From a virus, in the IMG/VR virus record IMGVR_UViG_3300042992_000919, positions 1 through 63,656 of that record: a DNA stretch of 63,656 nucleotides, one strand, 5' to 3'. Position numbers and translations under genes: made by a program. Position 1 is the stretch's first letter, and every line of letters starts with the position of its first letter. The notes beneath the pieces are model-generated. The model saw nothing but the letters and a program-made list of their open reading frames with translations, had not been told where the DNA came from and ran no database searches. Positions 7,624-20,322 of this stretch are shown here, in pieces.

Positions 7624-8889
7624 ATGGCACAAGGATACTCATCATACAATATAATCAGTAGTGAGATTTCATTTAAGAACTCTCCTAACATAGATGCGTT
7701 TGGTAGGCTAAGGGTTAGTAGTCCATTCACATTGTTTGATTCAAGTCATAGATTTGCTGACAACGGACTTTGGTCAACAGGGACTGTAACAGGAGGTGCA
7801 ACATTAGGGAGTGCCACATTTAATGCATCTCAAGGTCTTATTGACTTGACTGTAACTACTGCATCAGGCTCGGAGGTGGTTAGAGAAACCACTAAGGTGT
7901 TCTCGTATCAACCAGGAAAGAGTTTATTGGTACTAAGCACATTTGTAATGAGTCCTGCTAAAACAGGTCTTAGACAAAGGGTTGGATATTATGGAGCTCA
8001 AAATGGTTTATATGTTCAACTAAATAACTCTACTCTTAGCTTTGTTGAGAGAAGTTTAGTTACTGGTTTTGTTAGTGAAACTGAAGTAAATCAATCAGCA
8101 TGGAATGTTGATAAAATGGATGGAACAGGTGTTAGTGGTATTACACTTGATATTACAAAAGCTCAAATATTGTTTATGGATATTGAGTGGTTAGGTCTTG
8201 GAACCGTTAGAATGGGGTTTGTTATAGATGGTAACTTCTATGTTTGCCATAAGTTTCACCATGCTAATTTAATTGCTTCTACATACATAACTACAGCATC
8301 TCTTCCTTTAAGGTATGAAATAACAAATACAGGTGTTACAAGTAGTGCAAGTACATTAAAACAAATATGTTCTACTGTATTGTCTGAAGGAGGTTATCAG
8401 CTTACTGGTCTTCAACAAGCAGTTGGTACTCCTGTAACTACTCCAAAAAACCTACCAGTAGCAGGAACATTTTATCCTGTAGTAAGTTTGCGTCTTAAAA
8501 CATCTCCTGATAGATTAGATGCTATAATTATATGTACAGCAATTTCTATAATAGCAACATCTTCAGCAGATTATAACTGGCAAGTAATAGCAACTGGAGC
8601 TACTACAGGAGGTACTTGGGTGAGTGCAGGAACAGGTTCTTCTGTAGAATACAATATTACTGGAACAAGTTTTACAGGAGGTAGAATACTTGCAAGTGGA
8701 TTTTTTAGTGTATCAAACCAAGGTTCAACTCAGGTTGATATCCTCAAAGAAGCACTCTTTAAAACACAGCTTGAAAGAAATGGATTAACAGGAGTTCCAT
8801 TTGAACTTACTGTTGTAGTTGCTTCTAACACTGGAGGTGGTGGAGGAAATGTTCTTGCATCAATGGACTGGGAGGAAATAAGCAGATAA
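7624..8889 (+). CDS. Conserved phage virion protein, 421 aa
   Basis: Starts MAQGYSSYNIISSEISF. The signature stretch IDAFGRLRVSSPFTLFDSSH (residues 23-42) is one I know from uncharacterised structural proteins of tailed phages. The rest is beta-rich with regular hydrophobic strands and a Gly tract (GGGGG) near the C-terminus. No enzyme motif. It shares its first four residues (MAQG) with the next protein. It probably belongs to the adhesin or fibre apparatus; the exact position in the virion is not known. Confidence 0.6.
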   Translation: MAQGYSSYNIISSEISFKNSPNIDAFGRLRVSSPFTLFDSSHRFADNGLWSTGTVTGGATLGSATFNASQGLIDLTVTTASGSEVVRETTKVFSYQPGKSLLVLSTFVMSPAKTGLRQRVGYYGAQNGLYVQLNNSTLSFVERSLVTGFVSETEVNQSAWNVDKMDGTGVSGITLDITKAQILFMDIEWLGLGTVRMGFVIDGNFYVCHKFHHANLIASTYITTASLPLRYEITNTGVTSSASTLKQICSTVLSEGGYQLTGLQQAVGTPVTTPKNLPVAGTFYPVVSLRLKTSPDRLDAIIICTAISIIATSSADYNWQVIATGATTGGTWVSAGTGSSVEYNITGTSFTGGRILASGFFSVSNQGSTQVDILKEALFKTQLERNGLTGVPFELTVVVASNTGGGGGNVLASMDWEEISR

Positions 8890-8890
8890 C

Positions 8891-10240
8891 ATGGCACAGG
8901 GATTCACAAGAGGTACACCGATAGATACAGACCCTAACTTAGCATTAGATAGTGACTTGGTTGTTCCTTCCCAAAAGGCTGTAAAGGATTATATAGACAC
9001 AGGGTTAGCTGATAAGGTAGACAGGGCAGGTGATACGATGTCAGGGAATCTTATCCTAAACACCAACCCTACACTTCCATTACAAGCTGCCACAAAGGAC
9101 TACGTTGATACACTCATAAATGGTTTAGATTGGAAGCAAGCTGCTGATGCAGGTACTGTTGCTGTTCTTCCTGCATATACTGTAACAGGTTCAGGTCAAA
9201 TACTTACAGGAAATGTTAATGGTGCTATACCTTCTGCTACAACTGATAATGTTACTCTTACTGCAAACCAAAGGTTATTAGTAAAGAATGAAACTTCTAC
9301 TCTTACTCCCAACAACGGTATCTATGTAGTAACACAGGTAGGTAGTGGCTCTCTTCCTTTTATACTTACAAGGTCAGCCGATGCTAACACATCTGCGTTA
9401 TTATCTGAGGCTACATTAGGTGTTAAGAATGGAACTACGCTTGCTAATACACAATGGCATTGTAATCCTGCTGCTATACCTATAATTATAGGAACAACAA
9501 ATATTACATTTGCTCAGATAGGTGGAGGCAATTATACATTTAGCCCTCCGTTAGCGGTAGCAGGAAACATTGTTTCTATACCACCTGCAACATCTTCTGT
9601 AGATGGATATTTAACAGCTTCTGACCATTTACTTTTTAGTGGTAAGCAAGATGCTCTTACAGATACAAAGTCAGTTAAAATTGTATCTAATAATGTTGAA
9701 CTTGATGGAGATTTAACAACTCCATTAGCTAACTATGTATATGGTACTAATGGATCAGGAACAAGAGGATGGAAACCAGACCCTACAGGTGGTGGTAATT
9801 CAATAGGTGAATTAACTGGTGATGTAACAGCAGGTCCTGCATCATCTCCAAGTCAATCTGTAGCATCTACATTAAAAGCCAATCTAAAAACAGGCTCTTG
9901 CGGTGTTACATTTGATGGTCAAGGAGGAACAATCAGCAATGGTAAAACTGCTTATGTGCAAGTGCCATATGCAGGTACAATAACAGGATGGACATTGGTT
10001 GCTAATGTGGCAGGAAATTGTACTGTAACTGTGTTTAAAGATACCTATATTAACTATCCACCTACATCACCAACAGATAATATATTTGTTACACAACCTG
10101 CTTTATTGGGCGTAAATAAACAACAAAATCCAAGTGCAATATCTGTAGCAGTTACAGCAGGAGATTACATAGGATTCACTATATCAGGTGTGCTTACAGT
10201 TAGTTGGGTGAACTTAACATTGACAATCAATAAAACATGA
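8891..10240 (+). CDS. Tail fibre protein with phage-fibre repeat domain, 449 aa
   Basis: Several familiar tail-fibre modules occur in order: two VPSQKAVKDYID / AATKDYVDTLI segments (about residues 26-38 and 66-78), the GDTMSGNLIL segment (about 47-56), then GLDWKQAADAG and LTANQRLLVKNETSTLTPNNGIYVV (about 80-160), a domain common in distal tail fibres of T4-like and lambdoid phages. A TSSVDGYLTASDHLLFSGKQ segment follows (about 230-255). The C-terminus is a beta-sandwich. Its stop overlaps the following ATG by 4 nt. Confidence 0.8.
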   Translation: MAQGFTRGTPIDTDPNLALDSDLVVPSQKAVKDYIDTGLADKVDRAGDTMSGNLILNTNPTLPLQAATKDYVDTLINGLDWKQAADAGTVAVLPAYTVTGSGQILTGNVNGAIPSATTDNVTLTANQRLLVKNETSTLTPNNGIYVVTQVGSGSLPFILTRSADANTSALLSEATLGVKNGTTLANTQWHCNPAAIPIIIGTTNITFAQIGGGNYTFSPPLAVAGNIVSIPPATSSVDGYLTASDHLLFSGKQDALTDTKSVKIVSNNVELDGDLTTPLANYVYGTNGSGTRGWKPDPTGGGNSIGELTGDVTAGPASSPSQSVASTLKANLKTGSCGVTFDGQGGTISNGKTAYVQVPYAGTITGWTLVANVAGNCTVTVFKDTYINYPPTSPTDNIFVTQPALLGVNKQQNPSAISVAVTAGDYIGFTISGVLTVSWVNLTLTINKT

Positions 10241-10479
10241 CGTATAAAATACTTTCTTCAAGACAGGCAGATATTACTCTTATTACTACAGTAGAGTATA
10301 ACTTAGATGGTACTATTGTTACCACAGAAGTGCCTCATTTCATGCCTAAATCTCAAGAGGAGATTGAGCAGAACATCATCAACAGAGCAGCTTCTGAAAT
10401 GGCAAGGCTACAAGCAGAGCAAGAGATTGCTAACCTAATACCATCACTTCCTATTAACGAGGAAAAGCCTATTGAGTAA
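10237..10479 (+). CDS. Conserved 80-aa fibre-associated protein, copy A
   Basis: Starts MTYKILSSRQADITLITTVE, with a beta-strand half and a helical, charged C-terminal half (SQEEIEQNIINRAASEMARL) ending in IPSLPINEEKPIE. It is a clear paralogue of the protein at 15402-15644. Each copy is followed at once (TAATG overlap) by a large adhesin that starts with a W-TGAG module, so I infer a partner or assembly role for that adhesin. No known domain. Confidence 0.65.
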   Translation: MTYKILSSRQADITLITTVEYNLDGTIVTTEVPHFMPKSQEEIEQNIINRAASEMARLQAEQEIANLIPSLPINEEKPIE

Positions 10480-12167
10480 TGGCAACTAAAACATGGACAG
10501 GAGCTGGCGCTAATGAACTATGGAATACTGCGGCTAATTGGAGTGGTGGAACTATTCCTGTTACAGGAGATGACATTATTTTTGATGGTGTTGCTGCTAA
10601 TGGAAAAAAGAATTGCACATTAAATGTTGGATTTACAGCTTTATCTGTAACATTTACATCAGGATATAGCAACACTGGAGTATCTCCATTTAATGGCACT
10701 TTTACCTTTGGAAACAATTTAGTTATAGGAACTGGAGGTCTTACTTTAGGTATAAATAGTACATATGCAACCAATGCTACACCTACTTCATATAGTATAA
10801 CATTTAATGCTACTTGTACATTTACGGCTAATGGAAAAATACTTCCTACAAATGTGACACTTGGTGCAAGTGCAACAACTTTAACAATAAATGGAAACGC
10901 TGATTTTGGGGGAAATATATTGCAACAAACTACCAGTCATACAATAAAATCAGCAGTTGGAGTTCCATGTGATTTAAAAATTGGTGGCAATATAGTTTTG
11001 GGAGCTATGACAACAAATGTCACAGACCATGTTACAATTAAAGGATATGGAGGAACACTTGTTTCTCCAAAAACATTTAGTTCAAATTCCGCATCATCTA
11101 ATGCAAGAGTTTCTTTTATTAGTGGAAGTTTTTATACATCATCAGGTAGTTCTGCTCTTAGTGGTGCAAGTTTTTTAACAGTAGAAATAGGTGGGCAGTT
11201 TAATGCTAATGCTGCTCATACTTTTAATAATACAACAACAACTGTTTCTGGTTTTAATTCATCTAATAATTCTGACTTTTTTGCATATATAGGAGGAACA
11301 CTTGTATTATCTACTGATACAGTAATAAAATCTTTTATACAAATACAAACAGTAGCTATTACAATAACCTCAGGTGCTTCAAAATTATTATTAGAGGGGA
11401 ATTTAACATCTACAAGTTCAGCAACTACTATAATAGATAGATTAGAGTTTTCTGGAACAACAGCAAGTACTGTATCAGCGGTAACTACAACAAGTAATTT
11501 ACGAATAATAAATCTTTCATTTAATAAAACAGGAGCTGGTTCTGTAAATTTTACATCAACTGAATTTAGACTATTTATTCCTTCTGCTACAACATACACA
11601 TGGACTCATACATCAGGAGCAATTACCTATTCACCTACCTCTGTTATAAGGATTCAATATAATACAACAAGCTCAACTTTGGTGTATTCTGAGTCAGGTT
11701 CATTATCAACACTATCTACAATTAACTCACTAATTTTATCTGCTGGCATACTGCAAATTAATTCACCATTGAGGGCAACTACACTTACAATATTAGGAAC
11801 TTCAATTGTGTTTACTGGTTCAGCAGGATGGACTTGTGATAACTTAATCTGTTCAACACAAGGAACTACTATAACACTACAAAGCCTAATTACATATACC
11901 ACAACTACATCTGTGAATATGTTAGGAGCTAATGCTTCAAGAATACTTATGAGGTCAAGTGATTTAACAATACCTTATGACTTGGCTATTTGGACTTTTA
12001 ATGGCAATACTCAATCTATGGTATATGTAAATGCAACAGCAATAAATAGTTCATTAGGTCAAACAATATGGAGTTTTCAAGGAACAACAAATGGTATTGA
12101 TCCTTCAACACTAAATTGGAATCCAGGAACAAAACCTGAAACACAGGGGATAACATTTGTTAATTAA
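10479..12167 (+). CDS. Beta-solenoid-like adhesin, 562 aa (family member 1)
   Basis: The N-terminal module has the pattern KTWTGAGANELWNTAANWSG, then P-V-TGDDIIFDG and a Cys-containing strand, which recurs in the proteins at 12186 and 15644. The body is a long run of short Thr/Ser/Asn-rich strands (SLxxTxG repeats) expected to form a beta-solenoid. The C-terminal 60 residues (QSMVYVNATAINSS, GQTIWSF, then LNWNPGTKPE) match the end of the 1060-aa protein. No catalytic residues stand out. Likely a host-surface adhesin on the virion. Confidence 0.65.
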   Translation: MATKTWTGAGANELWNTAANWSGGTIPVTGDDIIFDGVAANGKKNCTLNVGFTALSVTFTSGYSNTGVSPFNGTFTFGNNLVIGTGGLTLGINSTYATNATPTSYSITFNATCTFTANGKILPTNVTLGASATTLTINGNADFGGNILQQTTSHTIKSAVGVPCDLKIGGNIVLGAMTTNVTDHVTIKGYGGTLVSPKTFSSNSASSNARVSFISGSFYTSSGSSALSGASFLTVEIGGQFNANAAHTFNNTTTTVSGFNSSNNSDFFAYIGGTLVLSTDTVIKSFIQIQTVAITITSGASKLLLEGNLTSTSSATTIIDRLEFSGTTASTVSAVTTTSNLRIINLSFNKTGAGSVNFTSTEFRLFIPSATTYTWTHTSGAITYSPTSVIRIQYNTTSSTLVYSESGSLSTLSTINSLILSAGILQINSPLRATTLTILGTSIVFTGSAGWTCDNLICSTQGTTITLQSLITYTTTTSVNMLGANASRILMRSSDLTIPYDLAIWTFNGNTQSMVYVNATAINSSLGQTIWSFQGTTNGIDPSTLNWNPGTKPETQGITFVN

Positions 12168-12185: not shown

Positions 12186-15100
12186 ATGCCTATTTGGACA
12201 GGAGCAGGAGTAGATAATAATTATAGTACAGCAGCTAATTGGGATACTGGTGTTCCAACAGCAACTTCAGATGCTATATTTGATGGTAATACTGGATTAT
12301 ATCCTAATGCTAATAAGAATTGTATCATAACACCATCTGCACAATGTAGGTCATTAAACTGTACAGGATATGCAGGTCAAATAAATTTTACTAATAACTT
12401 AACTGTAGCTGCAAATGTTACATTAGGGAGTGGTATGACTACCACTGGAACGGCTAATCTTATAATAACTGGAACAAGCACTTTAACTTCTGCTGGCGTT
12501 CAATTAAGTGGAGGGCTACAATTTACTCCATCTACTTTTGGTCTTACTGGTACTATTGCAGACAATTGGACTATTGTAGGCTCTCTATCAAGAACAGGAG
12601 GAAATGCATATACAATTACAGGAAGTGGTGGAGTTAGAACCATAAGTGTACAGGGAAGTTTTACTGGTGGTTTGACTATTAATAACATAACTATAAGAAT
12701 GACTGGCACTGGAAATTTATCAGGAGGTGCAGGATCTGGAGGTGGTGGTTCTATTGAAATTGATACAGCAGGTACAATATCTCATAATGGAACATTCTCA
12801 CTTAACGGGATAGTTTTTACATATATAAATGGTACATTTAATTCAACAGCTACATTAGCCTGTGGAGCCAATACTTCTGTATTTAATAATTGGGGGAATA
12901 TTAGTAGAGCTTTTTTTGCATTTGATTGGAATGTTAATCTCGGAGGTCAATCTGTAAATCTAAACTCAGATATATATATTACCACTAATTTGACGTTTAG
13001 TGCTGGTCCTGGAAATTTTAATGGAGTAGGAAGAACAGTATTTATTTACGGAAACATTTCAGGAGCAGGTAATGGATTAGGTGGTACTGCAACAGTACAA
13101 ATGGAAGGCTCTACAAATGCATCTATTAACATAAGTTCCATTTTAAACAATCTAAACATTAATAAAAGCGGAGCTGCAACAGTTACTATTCTAAATCCTT
13201 TAAATTGGGGAGCAGCAGGTAGAACCCTTAATATAATCACAGGGAATAATTTAATACTTTCTGCTGTCTTAAATGTATTAGGAGGCACAGTAACTGCTGT
13301 TGGTATTATTACAGGACCATCAAATCTTGTAATTATTGGAACATCTACATTAGATATTGCTACTGGTGTTACTATACCAAATCTTAGAGCAAATCCTGGA
13401 GCATCTATTACAATAACATTGATAAGAACTACTGTTGTCACAAATTTCTCTAAAACAGGAACAAATTTTTCAAATGTTACATTTTCTTCAAGCACAGCAG
13501 GAACTGAATTAAGGATAACAAACTATACATCTCATACTTTTAACCTTGGTACTACCATAATGGGTACAAATACTACATTACGCTTTATGGGTACTTGTAG
13601 CTTTGACAGCTTTAGAATTGCAGGTAATGTAGTACTTGATACAGGAGCAACATTAACACCATTAGCTGTAAGTTCCCTACTTACATCAATAACTTTTGAT
13701 GGCAATACTACACTTAATTTTTCTGCTGGAACTCTTGTATTACCTGCTATATCTAACTCTAATAAATTAGGAACTGGCTTCGTATTTCAAGCAGGTACAG
13801 CTCATACAATTAATCTTGGAAACTCTAATGCTATTGACTGGGTTGCTTGTAATAATGGGCCAACTATAACTCTTGGCTCAACACTTACAATTAATAAAGC
13901 AATTAATCAAGGTACAAGTGCCCCTGCTTTTGCAGGAGGGTTTAATGTTATAGTTAAAGAATCTTTAGCAACATCTTCAATAGCAAATTGGTATCAATTA
14001 AATATTTCTGGAGGTGGAAGATTTATATATCAAAGTAGTGCTACAGGGTTTATAGGAACTGGTTATATTGTAGGAACAACACTGTTTATTACATCAGTTA
14101 TTCAAGGGACACTTGGATATTTTTCTATTGTTCATGTTCCATCATCAACATCTACATTATACACCCAAATAACAAACTGTACAACTTTTCCAACAGCAGG
14201 AACTGGCCAATATACAGTTCAAACATCAATGACTGTTGGAAGTGTTGGTTCTCCTGTTACAATATATGGTTTTGGGATAGGGTTTTTAGGAACAAATGGT
14301 GTAGTTGAAATAGATGCAGGTTCAAACCCAGTTTATTTACACCAAATTAGTTTATTTGCAAGCACTTCAGAATTAAGATACCTTTCAACAAATACAGGTA
14401 CTTTTGATGGTTCAAAAGCAAGGATTTTAAATTCAGTAGGAGGAGTTGGTGGTTCTGTTGATTTTCAAGGTCAAAGCAGTCCTACTAAATTTATTAATCG
14501 TTTTAGCCCTGGTTATAGTACTAATGGTCTATTAAACTTAAAAAGCGATTTATATGTAAATGATTTTGAGTGTCAAAATTCAAGTGGATTAACTCAATCA
14601 GGAGGCACTCGGACACTTTATGTATATAGAGATTTTTTAGTGAATAATGATGGAATAAGAGTTCTTGTTCCTAACATAAGATTAGAAGGTTCATCTCCTG
14701 CTAATTTTACCTGTACAAATTTGTATGGTAATGTTGTAATTGCAAAAAGTGGAGGAGCTACTGTAACAGTTACTCAAAATTTCAACTATGGTTATGCTAC
14801 CCCAACTACCTTTACATACACATCTGGCATTGTAAACAACACAGGAAGAACAATAACAATAACAGGTAATTCTACATTTAATACAAGTGGGATGACTGGC
14901 AGCAGTGCTTGGAATAATTTTACAATAAATTCAGGTATTACACTTACGCTTAGTTCAACATTAAATATAAATGGAAATTTACTTTGTAATGGTTCTGCAA
15001 CATTTACTGGAACTGCTGGATGGGATTGTGCAAACTTAGTTTCTACAGCAGCAGGTACATTTATTATAACATTACAGCAAGCTGTTACATATAGAACAAG

Positions 15101-15368
15101 ACTACAAGCATTTATTACAGGAGGTGTAAGCACGACAGTTGGCACTACAATAATTTCATCAGGGGCATCAACAAGGGCTATATGGACATTAGACCAAGGA
15201 GCATCTCAATCATTGATATATGTCAATGGAACAAGGATAGATTCTTCACAAGGGCAAACTGTATGGACATTTGGAGGTTTAATTAGCACAACTCCTGTTG
15301 GAGCAGAAACTCTTAACTGGAATATAGGCTCACCTCCAGGTACTTTTGCATACACATTTGTAAATTAA
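12186..15368 (+). CDS. Giant beta-solenoid-like adhesin, 1060 aa (family member 2)
   Basis: Begins with the PIWTGAGVDNNYSTAANWD module. Residues 1-400 align along their length with the 404-aa protein at 15644-16858, sharing for example FTNNLTVA, ADNWTI and NWGAAGRTLN. The C-terminal end matches the 562-aa protein (QSLIYVNGTRIDSSQGQTVW, then LNWNIG). Between these lie about 600 residues of strand-turn repeats. The first part and the end therefore come from different members of the family. Probably one of the longest host-binding proteins of the particle. Separated from the previous gene by 18 nt. Confidence 0.65.
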   Translation: MPIWTGAGVDNNYSTAANWDTGVPTATSDAIFDGNTGLYPNANKNCIITPSAQCRSLNCTGYAGQINFTNNLTVAANVTLGSGMTTTGTANLIITGTSTLTSAGVQLSGGLQFTPSTFGLTGTIADNWTIVGSLSRTGGNAYTITGSGGVRTISVQGSFTGGLTINNITIRMTGTGNLSGGAGSGGGGSIEIDTAGTISHNGTFSLNGIVFTYINGTFNSTATLACGANTSVFNNWGNISRAFFAFDWNVNLGGQSVNLNSDIYITTNLTFSAGPGNFNGVGRTVFIYGNISGAGNGLGGTATVQMEGSTNASINISSILNNLNINKSGAATVTILNPLNWGAAGRTLNIITGNNLILSAVLNVLGGTVTAVGIITGPSNLVIIGTSTLDIATGVTIPNLRANPGASITITLIRTTVVTNFSKTGTNFSNVTFSSSTAGTELRITNYTSHTFNLGTTIMGTNTTLRFMGTCSFDSFRIAGNVVLDTGATLTPLAVSSLLTSITFDGNTTLNFSAGTLVLPAISNSNKLGTGFVFQAGTAHTINLGNSNAIDWVACNNGPTITLGSTLTINKAINQGTSAPAFAGGFNVIVKESLATSSIANWYQLNISGGGRFIYQSSATGFIGTGYIVGTTLFITSVIQGTLGYFSIVHVPSSTSTLYTQITNCTTFPTAGTGQYTVQTSMTVGSVGSPVTIYGFGIGFLGTNGVVEIDAGSNPVYLHQISLFASTSELRYLSTNTGTFDGSKARILNSVGGVGGSVDFQGQSSPTKFINRFSPGYSTNGLLNLKSDLYVNDFECQNSSGLTQSGGTRTLYVYRDFLVNNDGIRVLVPNIRLEGSSPANFTCTNLYGNVVIAKSGGATVTVTQNFNYGYATPTTFTYTSGIVNNTGRTITITGNSTFNTSGMTGSSAWNNFTINSGITLTLSSTLNINGNLLCNGSATFTGTAGWDCANLVSTAAGTFIITLQQAVTYRTRLQAFITGGVSTTVGTTIISSGASTRAIWTLDQGASQSLIYVNGTRIDSSQGQTVWTFGGLISTTPVGAETLNWNIGSPPGTFAYTFVN

Positions 15369-15383: not shown

Positions 15384-15401
15384 TAAAGAAAGTAATAAGC
15401 T

Positions 15402-15644
15402 ATGACATACAAAATTATTTCTACAAGACAGTCAAAAGAAATATTATTTACTACAGTTGAATATAACTTTGATGGTGAAATTATTTCTAATGATGTTGCT
15501 CACTTTATGCCTCAATCACAAGAGGAAGTTGAACAAACTATTGTAAATAATGCTCAATCTATTTTAGCTCAAAAAGAAGCTGAAGATAGAATTGCTACTA
15601 TTATTCCATCATTATCTATTAACGAAATTAAAACTATATTATAA
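15402..15644 (+). CDS. Conserved 80-aa fibre-associated protein, copy B
   Basis: Starts MTYKIISTRQSKEILFTTVE and ends IPSLSINEIKTIL. It has the same length as the protein at 10237-10479 and matches it at roughly half its positions (MTYKI, TTVEYN-DG, HFMP-SQEE-EQ, IPSL-INE). It is followed by an adhesin with the W-TGAG module through a TAATG overlap, as is copy A. The pair shows that an 80-aa-plus-adhesin cassette was duplicated. The G-poor, A-rich wording of this copy suggests long divergence. Confidence 0.65.
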   Translation: MTYKIISTRQSKEILFTTVEYNFDGEIISNDVAHFMPQSQEEVEQTIVNNAQSILAQKEAEDRIATIIPSLSINEIKTIL

Positions 15645-16858
15645 TGCCAACTTGGACAGGAGCAGGAGCAAATAATAATTGGAGTACAGGATTAAACTGG
15701 GATACTTTATCAGCACCAACGGCAGCTCAACCTGCTATATTTGATGGAGTTACAGGAGTACTTCCTAATAAAAATGTAACTATAACATCAGGAGCAACTT
15801 GTGCTTCTATAACATTTGTTGGATATACAGGAGAAGCTAACTTTACAAACAATTTAACTGTAGCAGGTAACATTACTTTTGGAACAGGAATGAGTTTCAA
15901 TAATGCTGGAACAGCTAATTTAGTTTGCACAGGTAACAATGGTGTATTAACATCTAATAATAAAACATTTCCAGGGGGTATTGTAATAGGTCACACAGGA
16001 ATAAATTGGACAACTTTTTTAGCTGATAATTGGACTATACTTGGTAGTATTAGCAGACAATCAACCGCAGACCTTTTAAGAGGCCAAACAACAACAAGAA
16101 CATTAACAGTTGGAGGCAGCGTTTTATTTAGCACAGGGTTAAGGATACAAGATATAGTTATAAAATTAAATAATACAGGAAACTTATCTGGAATTGTTAC
16201 GGGTATCGGTGGAACCACAAGAATAGAAATAGACACTCCTTCTGGAGCAATAACACATAATGCGGCATTGCGATTAAATGGAGTTGTGTTTAGATGGATT
16301 CAAGGAACATTTACATCAACGGCAGCATTGGAATTAGGGTCTGCTGGAAATGTTTTAGATAATGTTGGTTCTATATCATTTTCAAGTTTGAGTTTTGTTG
16401 CCGCTGCTGGCGGTGTAAGTGCAACAATACTATCGAATGTCAATGTGACAAATAACATGATATCAAATGCAAATGGATATACAATAAATGGATTGTTCAA
16501 TATTTTTGTTGGAGGAAGTATTCTGCTTGGAAGCAGTACACCATTTATTGATGGAACATCAACTATTGTAATGAATGGAGCTATTGCAGCCAATATTGGT
16601 ACTGCTGGATATAATACAACAATAAGAAATAATTTAACTATAAGTAAAACATTACCTGCGACAGTTTCTATATTGAGTCCAACTTTTACTTGGGGTGCAG
16701 CAGGAAGAACATTGAATTTAAATTCAACTGCAAATTTTGCAACTAATAGTACAACATTAACATTAGTAGGAACTCCATTAACTATATTAAATGCAAGTAA
16801 TAGTCAATTTTGGAATTTAACAACAGCAGCAGTAGCTCAAACAATTAATATAAATTAA
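15644..16858 (+). CDS. Beta-solenoid-like adhesin, 404 aa, N-terminal half of a split gene
   Basis: Starts PTWTGAGANNNWSTGLNWD after Met and matches the first 400 residues of the 1060-aa adhesin throughout. It stops at TAA (16856-16858) where related proteins continue into their C-terminal region; the missing C-terminal type of module is encoded by the next gene, two bases downstream in another frame. It may be a split adhesin whose two products assemble, or a product of an old frameshift. No slippery heptamer is visible near the stop. Confidence 0.65.
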   Translation: MPTWTGAGANNNWSTGLNWDTLSAPTAAQPAIFDGVTGVLPNKNVTITSGATCASITFVGYTGEANFTNNLTVAGNITFGTGMSFNNAGTANLVCTGNNGVLTSNNKTFPGGIVIGHTGINWTTFLADNWTILGSISRQSTADLLRGQTTTRTLTVGGSVLFSTGLRIQDIVIKLNNTGNLSGIVTGIGGTTRIEIDTPSGAITHNAALRLNGVVFRWIQGTFTSTAALELGSAGNVLDNVGSISFSSLSFVAAAGGVSATILSNVNVTNNMISNANGYTINGLFNIFVGGSILLGSSTPFIDGTSTIVMNGAIAANIGTAGYNTTIRNNLTISKTLPATVSILSPTFTWGAAGRTLNLNSTANFATNSTTLTLVGTPLTILNASNSQFWNLTTAAVAQTININ

Positions 16859-16860
16859 CA

Positions 16861-17547
16861 ATGGCTATAACTATAACAAATATATTAACAATAAGTAATA
16901 GTACAACATTTAGTGGTACAGAAGGTTTTACAACTAAAGATTATATACAGATAGTTCCTAATAGTACAGTTACATTAAAATCAGGAGTTACTTATACTGT
17001 AACAGGACAATTAACCATTACAGGAACATCAAGTCAAAGATGTGTTTTAAGATCAGATACTCCAATATCAACTACTGGTTCTATATCAACTCCTTTTACT
17101 TTAAATACTACATCTATTACAGTACCTACACCTCCAGTAGGATTTAATTATATAATGAGTCAATCTTCATTAAATGTTGGAATATTAAGAAGACCTGTTG
17201 TTGCAATGAATGGTACTGACCCTTCTCTTCTTACTTCATTTCCAGTAGTAAGTCCAGGTACTGGTACAAGTTTTACTTTATCTAGAACTTTTTCTTTAAG
17301 TCCAAGAGGAGTACAAATAGGATTAAGTGCAAAATTTATTCATACTGCTAGTGGAGGTGATACTGCTAGAAATATTAATTTTGTAAATACTTTTGATATA
17401 GATAGTTTAGGAAGTGTTGGTACAATTAAAGCAGATAATTCTTATCAAAATAGAGTGGGAATTCCTAATCCTAATCTATGGAGAACACTTAATTGGGATT
17501 CACTAAATCAATTATTACCAAATATTATTGAAGGATATATTGAATAA
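16861..17547 (+). CDS. C-terminal adhesin module as a separate gene, 228 aa
   Basis: The first half (TTFSGTEGFTTKDYIQIVPN, then QRCVLRSDTP) corresponds to the penultimate module of the 562-aa protein (VFTGSAGWTCDNLICS, then SRILMRSSD). The second half, from YIMSQSS to the end (FDIDS, TIKADNSYQNRVGIPNPN, then WRTLNWDSLNQLLPNIIEGY), is nearly the same as the end of the 751-aa protein at 17616. It starts only two bases after the stop of the 404-aa gene, so re-initiation or coupled translation is likely. No N-terminal anchor of its own is seen. Confidence 0.6.
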   Translation: MAITITNILTISNSTTFSGTEGFTTKDYIQIVPNSTVTLKSGVTYTVTGQLTITGTSSQRCVLRSDTPISTTGSISTPFTLNTTSITVPTPPVGFNYIMSQSSLNVGILRRPVVAMNGTDPSLLTSFPVVSPGTGTSFTLSRTFSLSPRGVQIGLSAKFIHTASGGDTARNINFVNTFDIDSLGSVGTIKADNSYQNRVGIPNPNLWRTLNWDSLNQLLPNIIEGYIE

Positions 17548-17615: not shown

Positions 17616-19871
17616 ATGCCAGTATATTATTTAAGAACGGGATCTGCAAGTTCAACTACAACTGTAAATTTAAATTCAACAAGTTTATGGGCTGCAGAAA
17701 TAAGTGGTTTTGCTCCTCCTGCAACTACAACAGGAACATTATCCCCCTCATATACAGATATAAATAATGAATTTGTAATTGATTCAAATAGTGGAGGTGT
17801 TGGTACTATTACTGCTAATTCATTACCATTAACTGTAACTAGTAATTTAACTATTGCTAATTTATCATTTGGTGCTAAAAATACTAGTACAGCAGTTGGA
17901 ACATTTACAAAAGCTTATTTAAATATATCAGCAGGAATTACTTTAGCAATTACTGGAACATTACAATTAAATAATGGTACAATGGTACTTGGTAGTACTG
18001 GAGGTGTTGGTGCATTGCGACTTAATACAAATAATACTGGTAAATTAAGTATACAAGGTAATTTAAACTTAGGTTATCATAATACTACTTCTCAAAATTT
18101 AGGTAGCACTATAAATGCAAATATTTCTGTAGATGGTGGAGCAAAATCAATTATTGAATTTGCAGGTTCAAGTGTTTGTTTTATTAAAGTAAGTTCTGTA
18201 TCTGGGGCAAGTACTACTGCTGCTTATTTAACAATTAGTGTTGCAGCAAATGGTCCAGTTGATCCATTATCTGTTGTTCAAATTGATTTTAATAAAACAA
18301 CTGCTTCAAATCCAGCATTTGTTGTATCAAATATTGGGTCAACAGGAATTAGAATTTGGTCACAAGGAGCTGGAGTTCCAACTTTTGTAACATTAAATTC
18401 AAATTATGATAGTGCTGCAAAACTTAGTTCTCCGGCTAGATATAATGCTCCAGGATTTCTTAATTTTACAATTGGAGGTTTTGCATTTAATACTCTTACA
18501 GATACAAAAGAATTAATTTTTGAAGCTTTAAGTTTTATTGTTAGTGAACTTAATTATATAGTTATATCAAATACAATTTCTTCTTTTAAAGTTAATAATA
18601 TAACTAATGCAAATACTAATAGTTCAGGATTTTTATCTATTTCTGAAAATTCAATTATTGAAATAAATAAAAATTTAATACTATCTGGTGTTGGACCTAT
18701 GTCAACTAATATTAATGGTGGAATTGGAGTTTTAAGAGGTGGAGGTACAATTAAATTTGTTGGAACATCAAATAGTACTTTAACATTAAGACCTTATACT
18801 GAAAATGAATATAAAACATTTTGGGCAAGAGTATGTTTTATAGATGTAAATATTGAAATAAATAAAACTGGTGGATCTACATTAGATATAAGTAATAATA
18901 TTACTGATTTACTTACTAGTAGATTAACGTTATATAAAGGTAGTGTAAATACTATTAATATTACACATACAGCAGGTGCTATTGATTGTGATCAAATTTA
19001 TTGTTTAAATACAATATCTACTAGATTATTTAATTTTATTGGAAATTCAACATTTAATACAGCATCAAAATTAGTAATAGCAACAGGTACTGGTAATAAT
19101 CCTGGTATATCAATTAATACAACTACATTAAAATTAAATGAAATTGAATTTAGACCTGCTGGAACTTTAACAGGAGGAATAACTCCTACAGCTAATACTT
19201 ATGGTGCTACTTTAACAGGAGATAAAGGTTTTACAGTTAATAATTTTATTCATACTAATAATGAAGATAATATTGCAGGTAGAATAAGTTCTGTTATATT
19301 ATCAAATGATCTTACTGCAGTTTATACAGTAAATAATAGTATTACTATGCTTGGATTATCTAATCGTAGAGCAATTCTTAGAGGTAATATATCTTCTGTA
19401 ATTAATTTACCTAGTACATCAGCTTCAAGTACTACTTTAACAACTACTACATCTCCAGCTTTAACTACTAGACATTATATTAGTCAAAGTCCAACAGCTG
19501 GTGGAGTTTCAAAAAGAACTCCAAGTGTTTTATTTACAGGTAGTGATGTTACTCTACAAAGTTCTTTTACTAAAATTGATGCTAATCTATCTCCAAATAC
19601 TTGGAGATTAAATAGAGATGTAGGAACAATAAATACTAGACCTTTTGAAGCAGGTATTCCAGCTATATTTAGATTTACAGGTTCTGCTAGTAATTTAAAT
19701 ATTAATTATGCTACTACTTTTGATATAGATAGTAGCGGGGCTACAACAATTAAAGCAGATAATTCATATCAAAATAGAGTTGGAATACCATTACCCAATA
19801 TGTGGAGAACTATAAATTGGGATGCTCTTAATCCACTTTTACCAAATATCATTGAAGGTTATGTCGAATAA
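17616..19871 (+). CDS. Adhesin, 751 aa, with shared C-terminal domain
   Basis: The N-terminus (MPVYYLRTGSASSTTTVNLN) differs from the W-TGAG module, and the body is a long Ser/Thr/Asn-rich strand repeat region with very AT-rich codons. The last about 110 residues (ISQSPTAGGVSKR to FDIDSSGATTIKADNSYQNR and NIIEGYVE) match the 228-aa protein. The upstream 68 nt are AT-only. Its last 11 nt overlap the start of the endolysin gene. Receptor-binding is inferred from architecture and location. Confidence 0.65.
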   Translation: MPVYYLRTGSASSTTTVNLNSTSLWAAEISGFAPPATTTGTLSPSYTDINNEFVIDSNSGGVGTITANSLPLTVTSNLTIANLSFGAKNTSTAVGTFTKAYLNISAGITLAITGTLQLNNGTMVLGSTGGVGALRLNTNNTGKLSIQGNLNLGYHNTTSQNLGSTINANISVDGGAKSIIEFAGSSVCFIKVSSVSGASTTAAYLTISVAANGPVDPLSVVQIDFNKTTASNPAFVVSNIGSTGIRIWSQGAGVPTFVTLNSNYDSAAKLSSPARYNAPGFLNFTIGGFAFNTLTDTKELIFEALSFIVSELNYIVISNTISSFKVNNITNANTNSSGFLSISENSIIEINKNLILSGVGPMSTNINGGIGVLRGGGTIKFVGTSNSTLTLRPYTENEYKTFWARVCFIDVNIEINKTGGSTLDISNNITDLLTSRLTLYKGSVNTINITHTAGAIDCDQIYCLNTISTRLFNFIGNSTFNTASKLVIATGTGNNPGISINTTTLKLNEIEFRPAGTLTGGITPTANTYGATLTGDKGFTVNNFIHTNNEDNIAGRISSVILSNDLTAVYTVNNSITMLGLSNRRAILRGNISSVINLPSTSASSTTLTTTTSPALTTRHYISQSPTAGGVSKRTPSVLFTGSDVTLQSSFTKIDANLSPNTWRLNRDVGTINTRPFEAGIPAIFRFTGSASNLNINYATTFDIDSSGATTIKADNSYQNRVGIPLPNMWRTINWDALNPLLPNIIEGYVE

Positions 19872-20322
19872 AATTACTAAAACAAGCAAAAAAGGTATTG
19901 ATCTAATCAAAAAGTATGAAGGATTTAAATCAGAACCATATCTCTGCCCGGCTAATGTGGCTACAATTGGATTCGGAACAACTTTTTATCCAGATGGAAG
20001 AAAAGTAAAATTAACGGATTCACCTGTTTCAGAAACAATAGCAGAGGTTATATTAAAAAGACAATTAGAAAAATTTGAGCAATACGTTGATAGTTATTGT
20101 ATTGATACTATTAATCAAAATCAATTTGATGCATTAGTTTCTTTTTGTTATAACCTTGGCCCCACTAATTTAAAAAATAGTACTCTACTAAAGAAAGTAA
20201 ATAAGAATCCAAATGATCCATCAATAAAAGATGAATTTATGAAATGGGTTAAGGCTGGAGGAAAAACACTAAAAGGATTAGTAAGAAGAAGAGAAGAAGA
20301 AGCTCAATTATATTTTTCTTAA
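19861..20322 (+). CDS. Endolysin, GH24 lysozyme (muramidase), 153 aa
   Basis: Hydrolyses the MurNAc-GlcNAc bond of peptidoglycan at lysis. The N-terminal helix ends in KKYEGF, giving the catalytic Glu20. The next key segment is PYLCPANVATIGFGT: at the place of the usual Asp (nine residues after the Glu) there is Cys29, and Thr35 keeps the third position. The rest (FDALVSFCYNLG, then GLVRRREEEAQLY) is typical of the family and the length is normal. No signal peptide or SAR segment is seen, so it should need a holin; none is adjacent. An upstream in-frame ATG at 19822 lies inside the adhesin gene; 19861 is the better start. Confidence 0.9.
   Translation: MSNKITKTSKKGIDLIKKYEGFKSEPYLCPANVATIGFGTTFYPDGRKVKLTDSPVSETIAEVILKRQLEKFEQYVDSYCIDTINQNQFDALVSFCYNLGPTNLKNSTLLKKVNKNPNDPSIKDEFMKWVKAGGKTLKGLVRRREEEAQLYFS

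Follow-up and report, generated by a model that had tools for sequence, protein, structure and literature searches.

A putative phage adhesin encoded by two adjacent genes, separated at the boundary of a C-terminal module that is fused in most relatives

It is a known principle that the distal part of a phage fibre can be encoded just downstream of the fibre gene. In T4-like phages (gp37/gp38) and in phage Mu (fibre and Tfa), a short downstream gene codes for a factor which acts at the distal end of the fibre, either transiently or as a lasting component; gp38 is a chaperone in T4 and a tip adhesin in S16 (PMC7289586). In the Alteromonas phages V22 (gp26/gp27) and A5 (gp8/gp9), the downstream protein is a chaperone which has been proposed to be a transient fibre cap, and which in its structure resembles the intramolecular chaperone domains that other receptor-binding proteins carry (PMC10579305). 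The beta-helical receptor-binding protein gp38 of Klebsiella phage KP32 needs its C-terminal modules for trimerisation and activity (PMC13082707). The stf gene of the lambda laboratory strain carries a frameshift, a loss-of-function mutation, and the fibre is not made (PMC10721106).

The gene pair described here shares a trait with several of these systems. As in gp37/gp38 and Mu/Tfa, a short gene (ORF2) follows immediately upon a fibre-type gene (ORF1), beginning two bases past its stop codon. Unlike gp38 and Tfa, ORF2 is homologous to a C-terminal module which paralogous adhesins carry in cis, and is predicted to continue the same solenoid. While cis and trans forms are linked by structural similarity in V22 and A5, the fused and split forms reported here are sequence homologues within one gene cluster. 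As in lambda stf, a fibre gene is interrupted into parts, but the split is common to three contigs, lies on a module boundary, and has left both parts retained. In KP32 gp38, by contrast, the C-terminal modules are encoded in cis, and the likeness to our proteins is one of description. The likeness of ORF2 to gp38, Tfa, and V22 gp27 is likewise one of gene position and putative role; ORF2 has no match in PHROGs, Pfam, or PDB sequences. A small search of open papers turned up no series of homologues in which fused and split forms share one fixed seam within a solenoid.

The window, i.e. the complete stretch of viral DNA which was analysed, comprises 63,656 nt (IMG/VR record IMGVR_UViG_3300042992_000919). 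ORF1 (15644-16858, plus strand, 404 aa) consists of an N-terminal adhesin module (W-T-G-A-G...N-W) and a putative beta-solenoid and is devoid of a C-terminal module. ORF2 (16861-17547, plus strand, 228 aa) is a complete, free-standing C-terminal module with residues 3-67 predicted as beta-strand. At the junction (TAA-CA-ATG, 16856-16863, plus strand; assembled sequence TAACAATG), the ORF1 stop codon (TAA, 16856-16858) is followed by two bases and then by the ORF2 start codon (ATG at 16861), the frame of ORF2 being -1 relative to that of ORF1. The coordinates, the lengths, and the two-base gap in the first-pass annotation are thus exact. That annotation had further matched ORF1 to the first 400 residues of a 1060-aa adhesin. 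This holds for residues 1-350 of that protein (45% identity, BLAST E about 1e-64 to 1e-67) but not for the last ~45 residues of ORF1, which are unaligned to the 1060-aa protein yet match the corresponding ORF1 of another contig (L004, see below). The N-terminal profile matches ORF1 at positions 1-83 (E=1.9e-39) and the C-terminal profile of class 2 matches ORF2 (E=6.4e-106), each ORF being itself among the seeds of its profile. Jointly, the two ORFs carry every module of the family and, as had been proposed, equal one shorter adhesin: their joint 632 aa are typical of fused relatives, which mostly have about 520-690 aa. The probable function as an adhesin, a host-binding spike, is assigned from position and fold. 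Neither ORF matched a named phage (tblastn), a named phage family in PHROGs or Pfam, or a PDB sequence, and the C-terminal modules had no relative among bacterial genome contigs.

Three further module-bearing genes surround the pair. The 562-aa (10479-12167, plus strand) and 1060-aa (12186-15368, plus strand) fused adhesins each carry an N-terminal module, which in the 1060-aa protein is as in ORF1, and a class-1 C-terminal module. The 751-aa protein (17616-19871, plus strand) combines an unrelated N-terminal part with a fused class-2 module. With its last 213 residues, ORF2 aligns to the C-terminus of the latter (41% identity, E about 1e-36), whereas it has only about its first 50 residues in common with the 562- and 1060-aa proteins. 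Judged by these alignments, C-terminal modules of two classes are therefore present in the cluster. ORF2 belongs to class 2, and the fused paralogue closest to it in the window is the 751-aa protein instead of the 1060-aa protein. The last 50 nt of the 751-aa gene are also part of a lysozyme-like ORF (19822-20322), the homologous part of which begins at about 19858, probably its true start.

The same split was encountered in two other viral contigs, L004 (IMGVR_UViG_3300044678_001332) and L089 (IMGVR_UViG_3300042308_000216). In L004, a 550-aa ORF is followed by a 235-aa ORF and the junction is likewise TAA-CA-ATG. In L089, a 543-aa ORF is followed by a 240-aa ORF, with a four-base gap, other junction DNA, and another frame relation. 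The presence of the cut in two other viruses indicates that the arrangement is genuine and retained, and that neither an error of sequencing nor a damaged gene accounts for it; we are nearly certain that the split is real and inherited. Fused versions, which the first-pass annotation had suggested looking for, are the common form: of 47 different module-bearing ORFs, 42 carry the C-terminal module in fused form and five are free modules (ORF2, two ORFs of L004 with 235 and 136 aa, and two of L089 with 240 and 130 aa), and loci found after this census are fused. In contig L090, the orthologue of the 751-aa gene is immediately preceded by a fused 767-aa gene, in the slot which the split pair occupies in the window.

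All five free modules start at one common place, their Met lying at position -3 or -4 relative to the module profile. Among the fused proteins of the census, no Met is conserved at this boundary, and we therefore rejected the idea that fused genes in general also make the module from an internal start. In L004 (3661-4071, 136 aa) and L089 (3700-4092, 130 aa), the first base of the free class-1 module is also the final base of a fibre gene's stop codon, and no truncated adhesin lies beside it. The fibre genes ahead of them (650/652 aa) look unrelated and keep a C-terminal domain of their own. In module trees, the two free class-1 modules form one group (89/85). The free class-2 modules, three in number, share a group with the C-terminal parts of the 751-aa protein and of its orthologue (100/100). 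The groupings are therefore compatible with a single origin per class, and the simplest count would be at least two events, one per module class. As its module groups with the free ones, the 751-aa protein may represent a re-fusion of a free module.

Across the junction, 60 nt including the stop and start codons are identical between the window (16834-16893, plus strand) and L004, while the longest identical run in 2000 column shuffles of this alignment was 49. We considered whether this 60-mer is a constrained RNA element and rejected this, since it is indistinguishable from recent recombination (223 identical nt nearby) and is absent in L089. A scan of viral contigs for the junction DNA pattern returned 82 stretches, none of which encodes a relative except that on the L004 contig. 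The segment similar to L004 is unbroken across the junction, from 16627 to 17547. GC at third codon positions drops from 0.14 in ORF1 to 0.04 in ORF2, but this drop lies inside ORF1, the last 40-codon block of which is already ORF2-like. On the simplest reading, the junction would thus have travelled within a larger exchanged block and would not have been born at a composition change. The adhesin cluster is mosaic, with DNA blocks of 83.7% and 77% identity between divergent stretches. The 223 nt which are identical between the window and L004 begin at 15389, where an 80-aa gene is nearly letter-identical while the adhesins around it have diverged. This gene (15402-15644, plus strand) overlaps the ORF1 start with its stop codon; it has a paralogue before the 562-aa adhesin (10237-10479), and its profile matches beside adhesin genes in many relatives. 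It recurrently precedes an adhesin gene (L004, L089, L093, L100, L101, L106, L117), and its stop codon usually overlaps the start of that gene. Its product could be an adaptor or chaperone, and the gene could also be a recombination anchor.

The position of the break was mapped on an AlphaFold2 model of a fused relative (L093, 541 residues; mean pLDDT 82.7, block means 95-98 near the break site). In an alignment of 28 sequences (A6), residue 404 of this protein corresponds to the end of ORF1 and of its L004 counterpart, and residue 405 to the start of the four free modules included; alignment ends may slide by one or two residues and the fit is exact to within that. The model has a turn at residues 404-406, between strands 399-403 and 407-415. 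The break is thus predicted to fall in a loop between two strands of a beta-solenoid which, in the fused relative, is predicted with confidence to be continuous. When ORF2 was modelled alone, only residues 1 to about 67 (first strand 3-11) were predicted with confidence, and the fold searches used the fused L093 model instead. Foldseek returned 0 matches below E=0.001 against PDB, the best VIA-align match had Z 11.0 and rmsd 9.0 with 416 aligned residues, and the fold searches returned generic beta-helix matches only.

Our preferred reading is a derived gene fission after which ORF2 acts in trans on ORF1 in a lasting complex; to this full statement we assign a probability of about one half. 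That the products of both ORFs are functional is, judging by their sequences, likely. The common form is a single chain of N-terminal module, beta-solenoid, and C-terminal module, which in the lineage of the window would have been cut at the loop just before the C-terminal module. ORF1 and ORF2 would then be translated in sequence from one message across the 2-nt gap, probably by re-initiation. ORF2 would dock in trans on the exposed end of the ORF1 solenoid and add the last rungs and the distal end, where we favour a permanent role (cap, trimer clamp, or receptor-binding tip) over that of an assembly chaperone. In other phage receptor-binding proteins, trimerisation and activity are driven by C-terminal modules (PMC13082707). 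A more general proposal, which we put forward tentatively and consider rather doubtful, is that two separately translated chains dock strand to strand at one fixed seam, so that end modules of the two classes could be swapped in cis or provided in trans to stalks of the same virion.

The alternative that fares best, although we consider it unlikely to be correct, is that ORF2 is a transient chaperone only, which, in the manner of T4 gp38 or V22 gp27, aids folding or trimerisation of ORF1 and does not remain in the mature virion. Chaperone genes commonly follow directly upon fibre genes, and the chaperones of the Alteromonas phages resemble intramolecular chaperone domains (PMC7289586, PMC10579305). 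The free class-1 modules, which lie behind fibre genes with ends of their own and lack a truncated partner, suit a diffusible factor and count against an obligatory one-to-one stalk partner; they are the best argument for a factor diffusing in trans, or else for a kept deletion remnant. Against a purely transient role, the beta-strands of ORF2 are predicted to continue the solenoid, and neither an S74-type nor another known autocleavage module was found (Pfam). We rank a stable two-chain adhesin above a transient chaperone because the module is covalently part of the adhesin in all 42 fused relatives.

It is less probable still that the pair is a degenerate remnant, in which recombination or deletion truncated the gene and one or both pieces are dispensable. 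The recent exchange seen in the mosaic cluster would provide for such an event, phages with several adhesin paralogues may tolerate a loss, and the frameshift in stf of laboratory lambda (PMC10721106) is a precedent. A remnant does not, however, account well for one common boundary of the break in five modules of two classes, nor for frames which stayed open at large divergence. Between the free class-2 modules, pN/pS is 0.65-0.76 in pairwise comparisons (bootstrap ranges <1), and it is 0.52 for the free class-1 pair, 0.55 for the first 90 residues of ORF1, and 0.83 (range up to 1.04) for its last 138 codons, all these values probably being biased high as third positions are nearly all A or T and synonymous change is underestimated. 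When drift by substitutions only was simulated at the observed 23% divergence, ORF2 remained open in 0/5000 runs, the corresponding count for the last 138 codons of ORF1 being 52/5000. These data point to purifying selection on ORF2. The fused C-termini have a pN/pS of 0.72, near the values of the free modules, and therefore no relaxation of selection is visible after the module was freed. Both halves appear to be maintained, ORF2 more clearly, selection on the last part of ORF1 being undemonstrated by pN/pS. The earlier suggestion that both halves, being intact, are still functional is borne out insofar as they are open and recognisable at large divergence, with the reservation that the range for the ORF1 end reaches 1.04.

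A programmed frameshift or stop codon readthrough, which would fuse the halves into one product, is very improbable. The frames are only two bases apart and the junction DNA is identical in L004, but the frame relation differs in L089, the open frames overlap by a few bases only, an X-XXY-YYZ slippery site is absent from the junction, and readthrough of the ORF1 stop would meet a second TAA three codons on. That a sequencing or assembly indel has split an intact gene is practically excluded by two further contigs which are split at the same place, one of them with different DNA and spacing, and by a junction without a homopolymer run. The first-pass annotation had offered a frameshift-split gene and two-part assembly as alternatives. 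The data support two separate, maintained products; a simple frameshift pseudogene is unlikely, and assembly of ORF1 and ORF2 into one adhesin is plausible.

As for the phage itself, its terminase is 24-27% identical to those of crAss-like and Flavobacterium phages, which places it near phages of Bacteroidota. A 421-aa virion structural protein (7624-8889) is 68-71% identical to proteins from Puniceispirillum phage HMO-2011 and cyanophages; because this affinity contrasts with that of the terminase, horizontal exchange of this protein is likely.

For annotators, the locus is a warning that such gene pairs should not be merged or dropped as frameshift errors. If the halves assemble, they would represent a beta-solenoid which is split in nature and has fused relatives within its own gene cluster. 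They would then be a test case both for how receptor-binding tips turn into separable modules and for a possible origin of downstream fibre tips and chaperones, by gene fission, from domains once encoded in cis.
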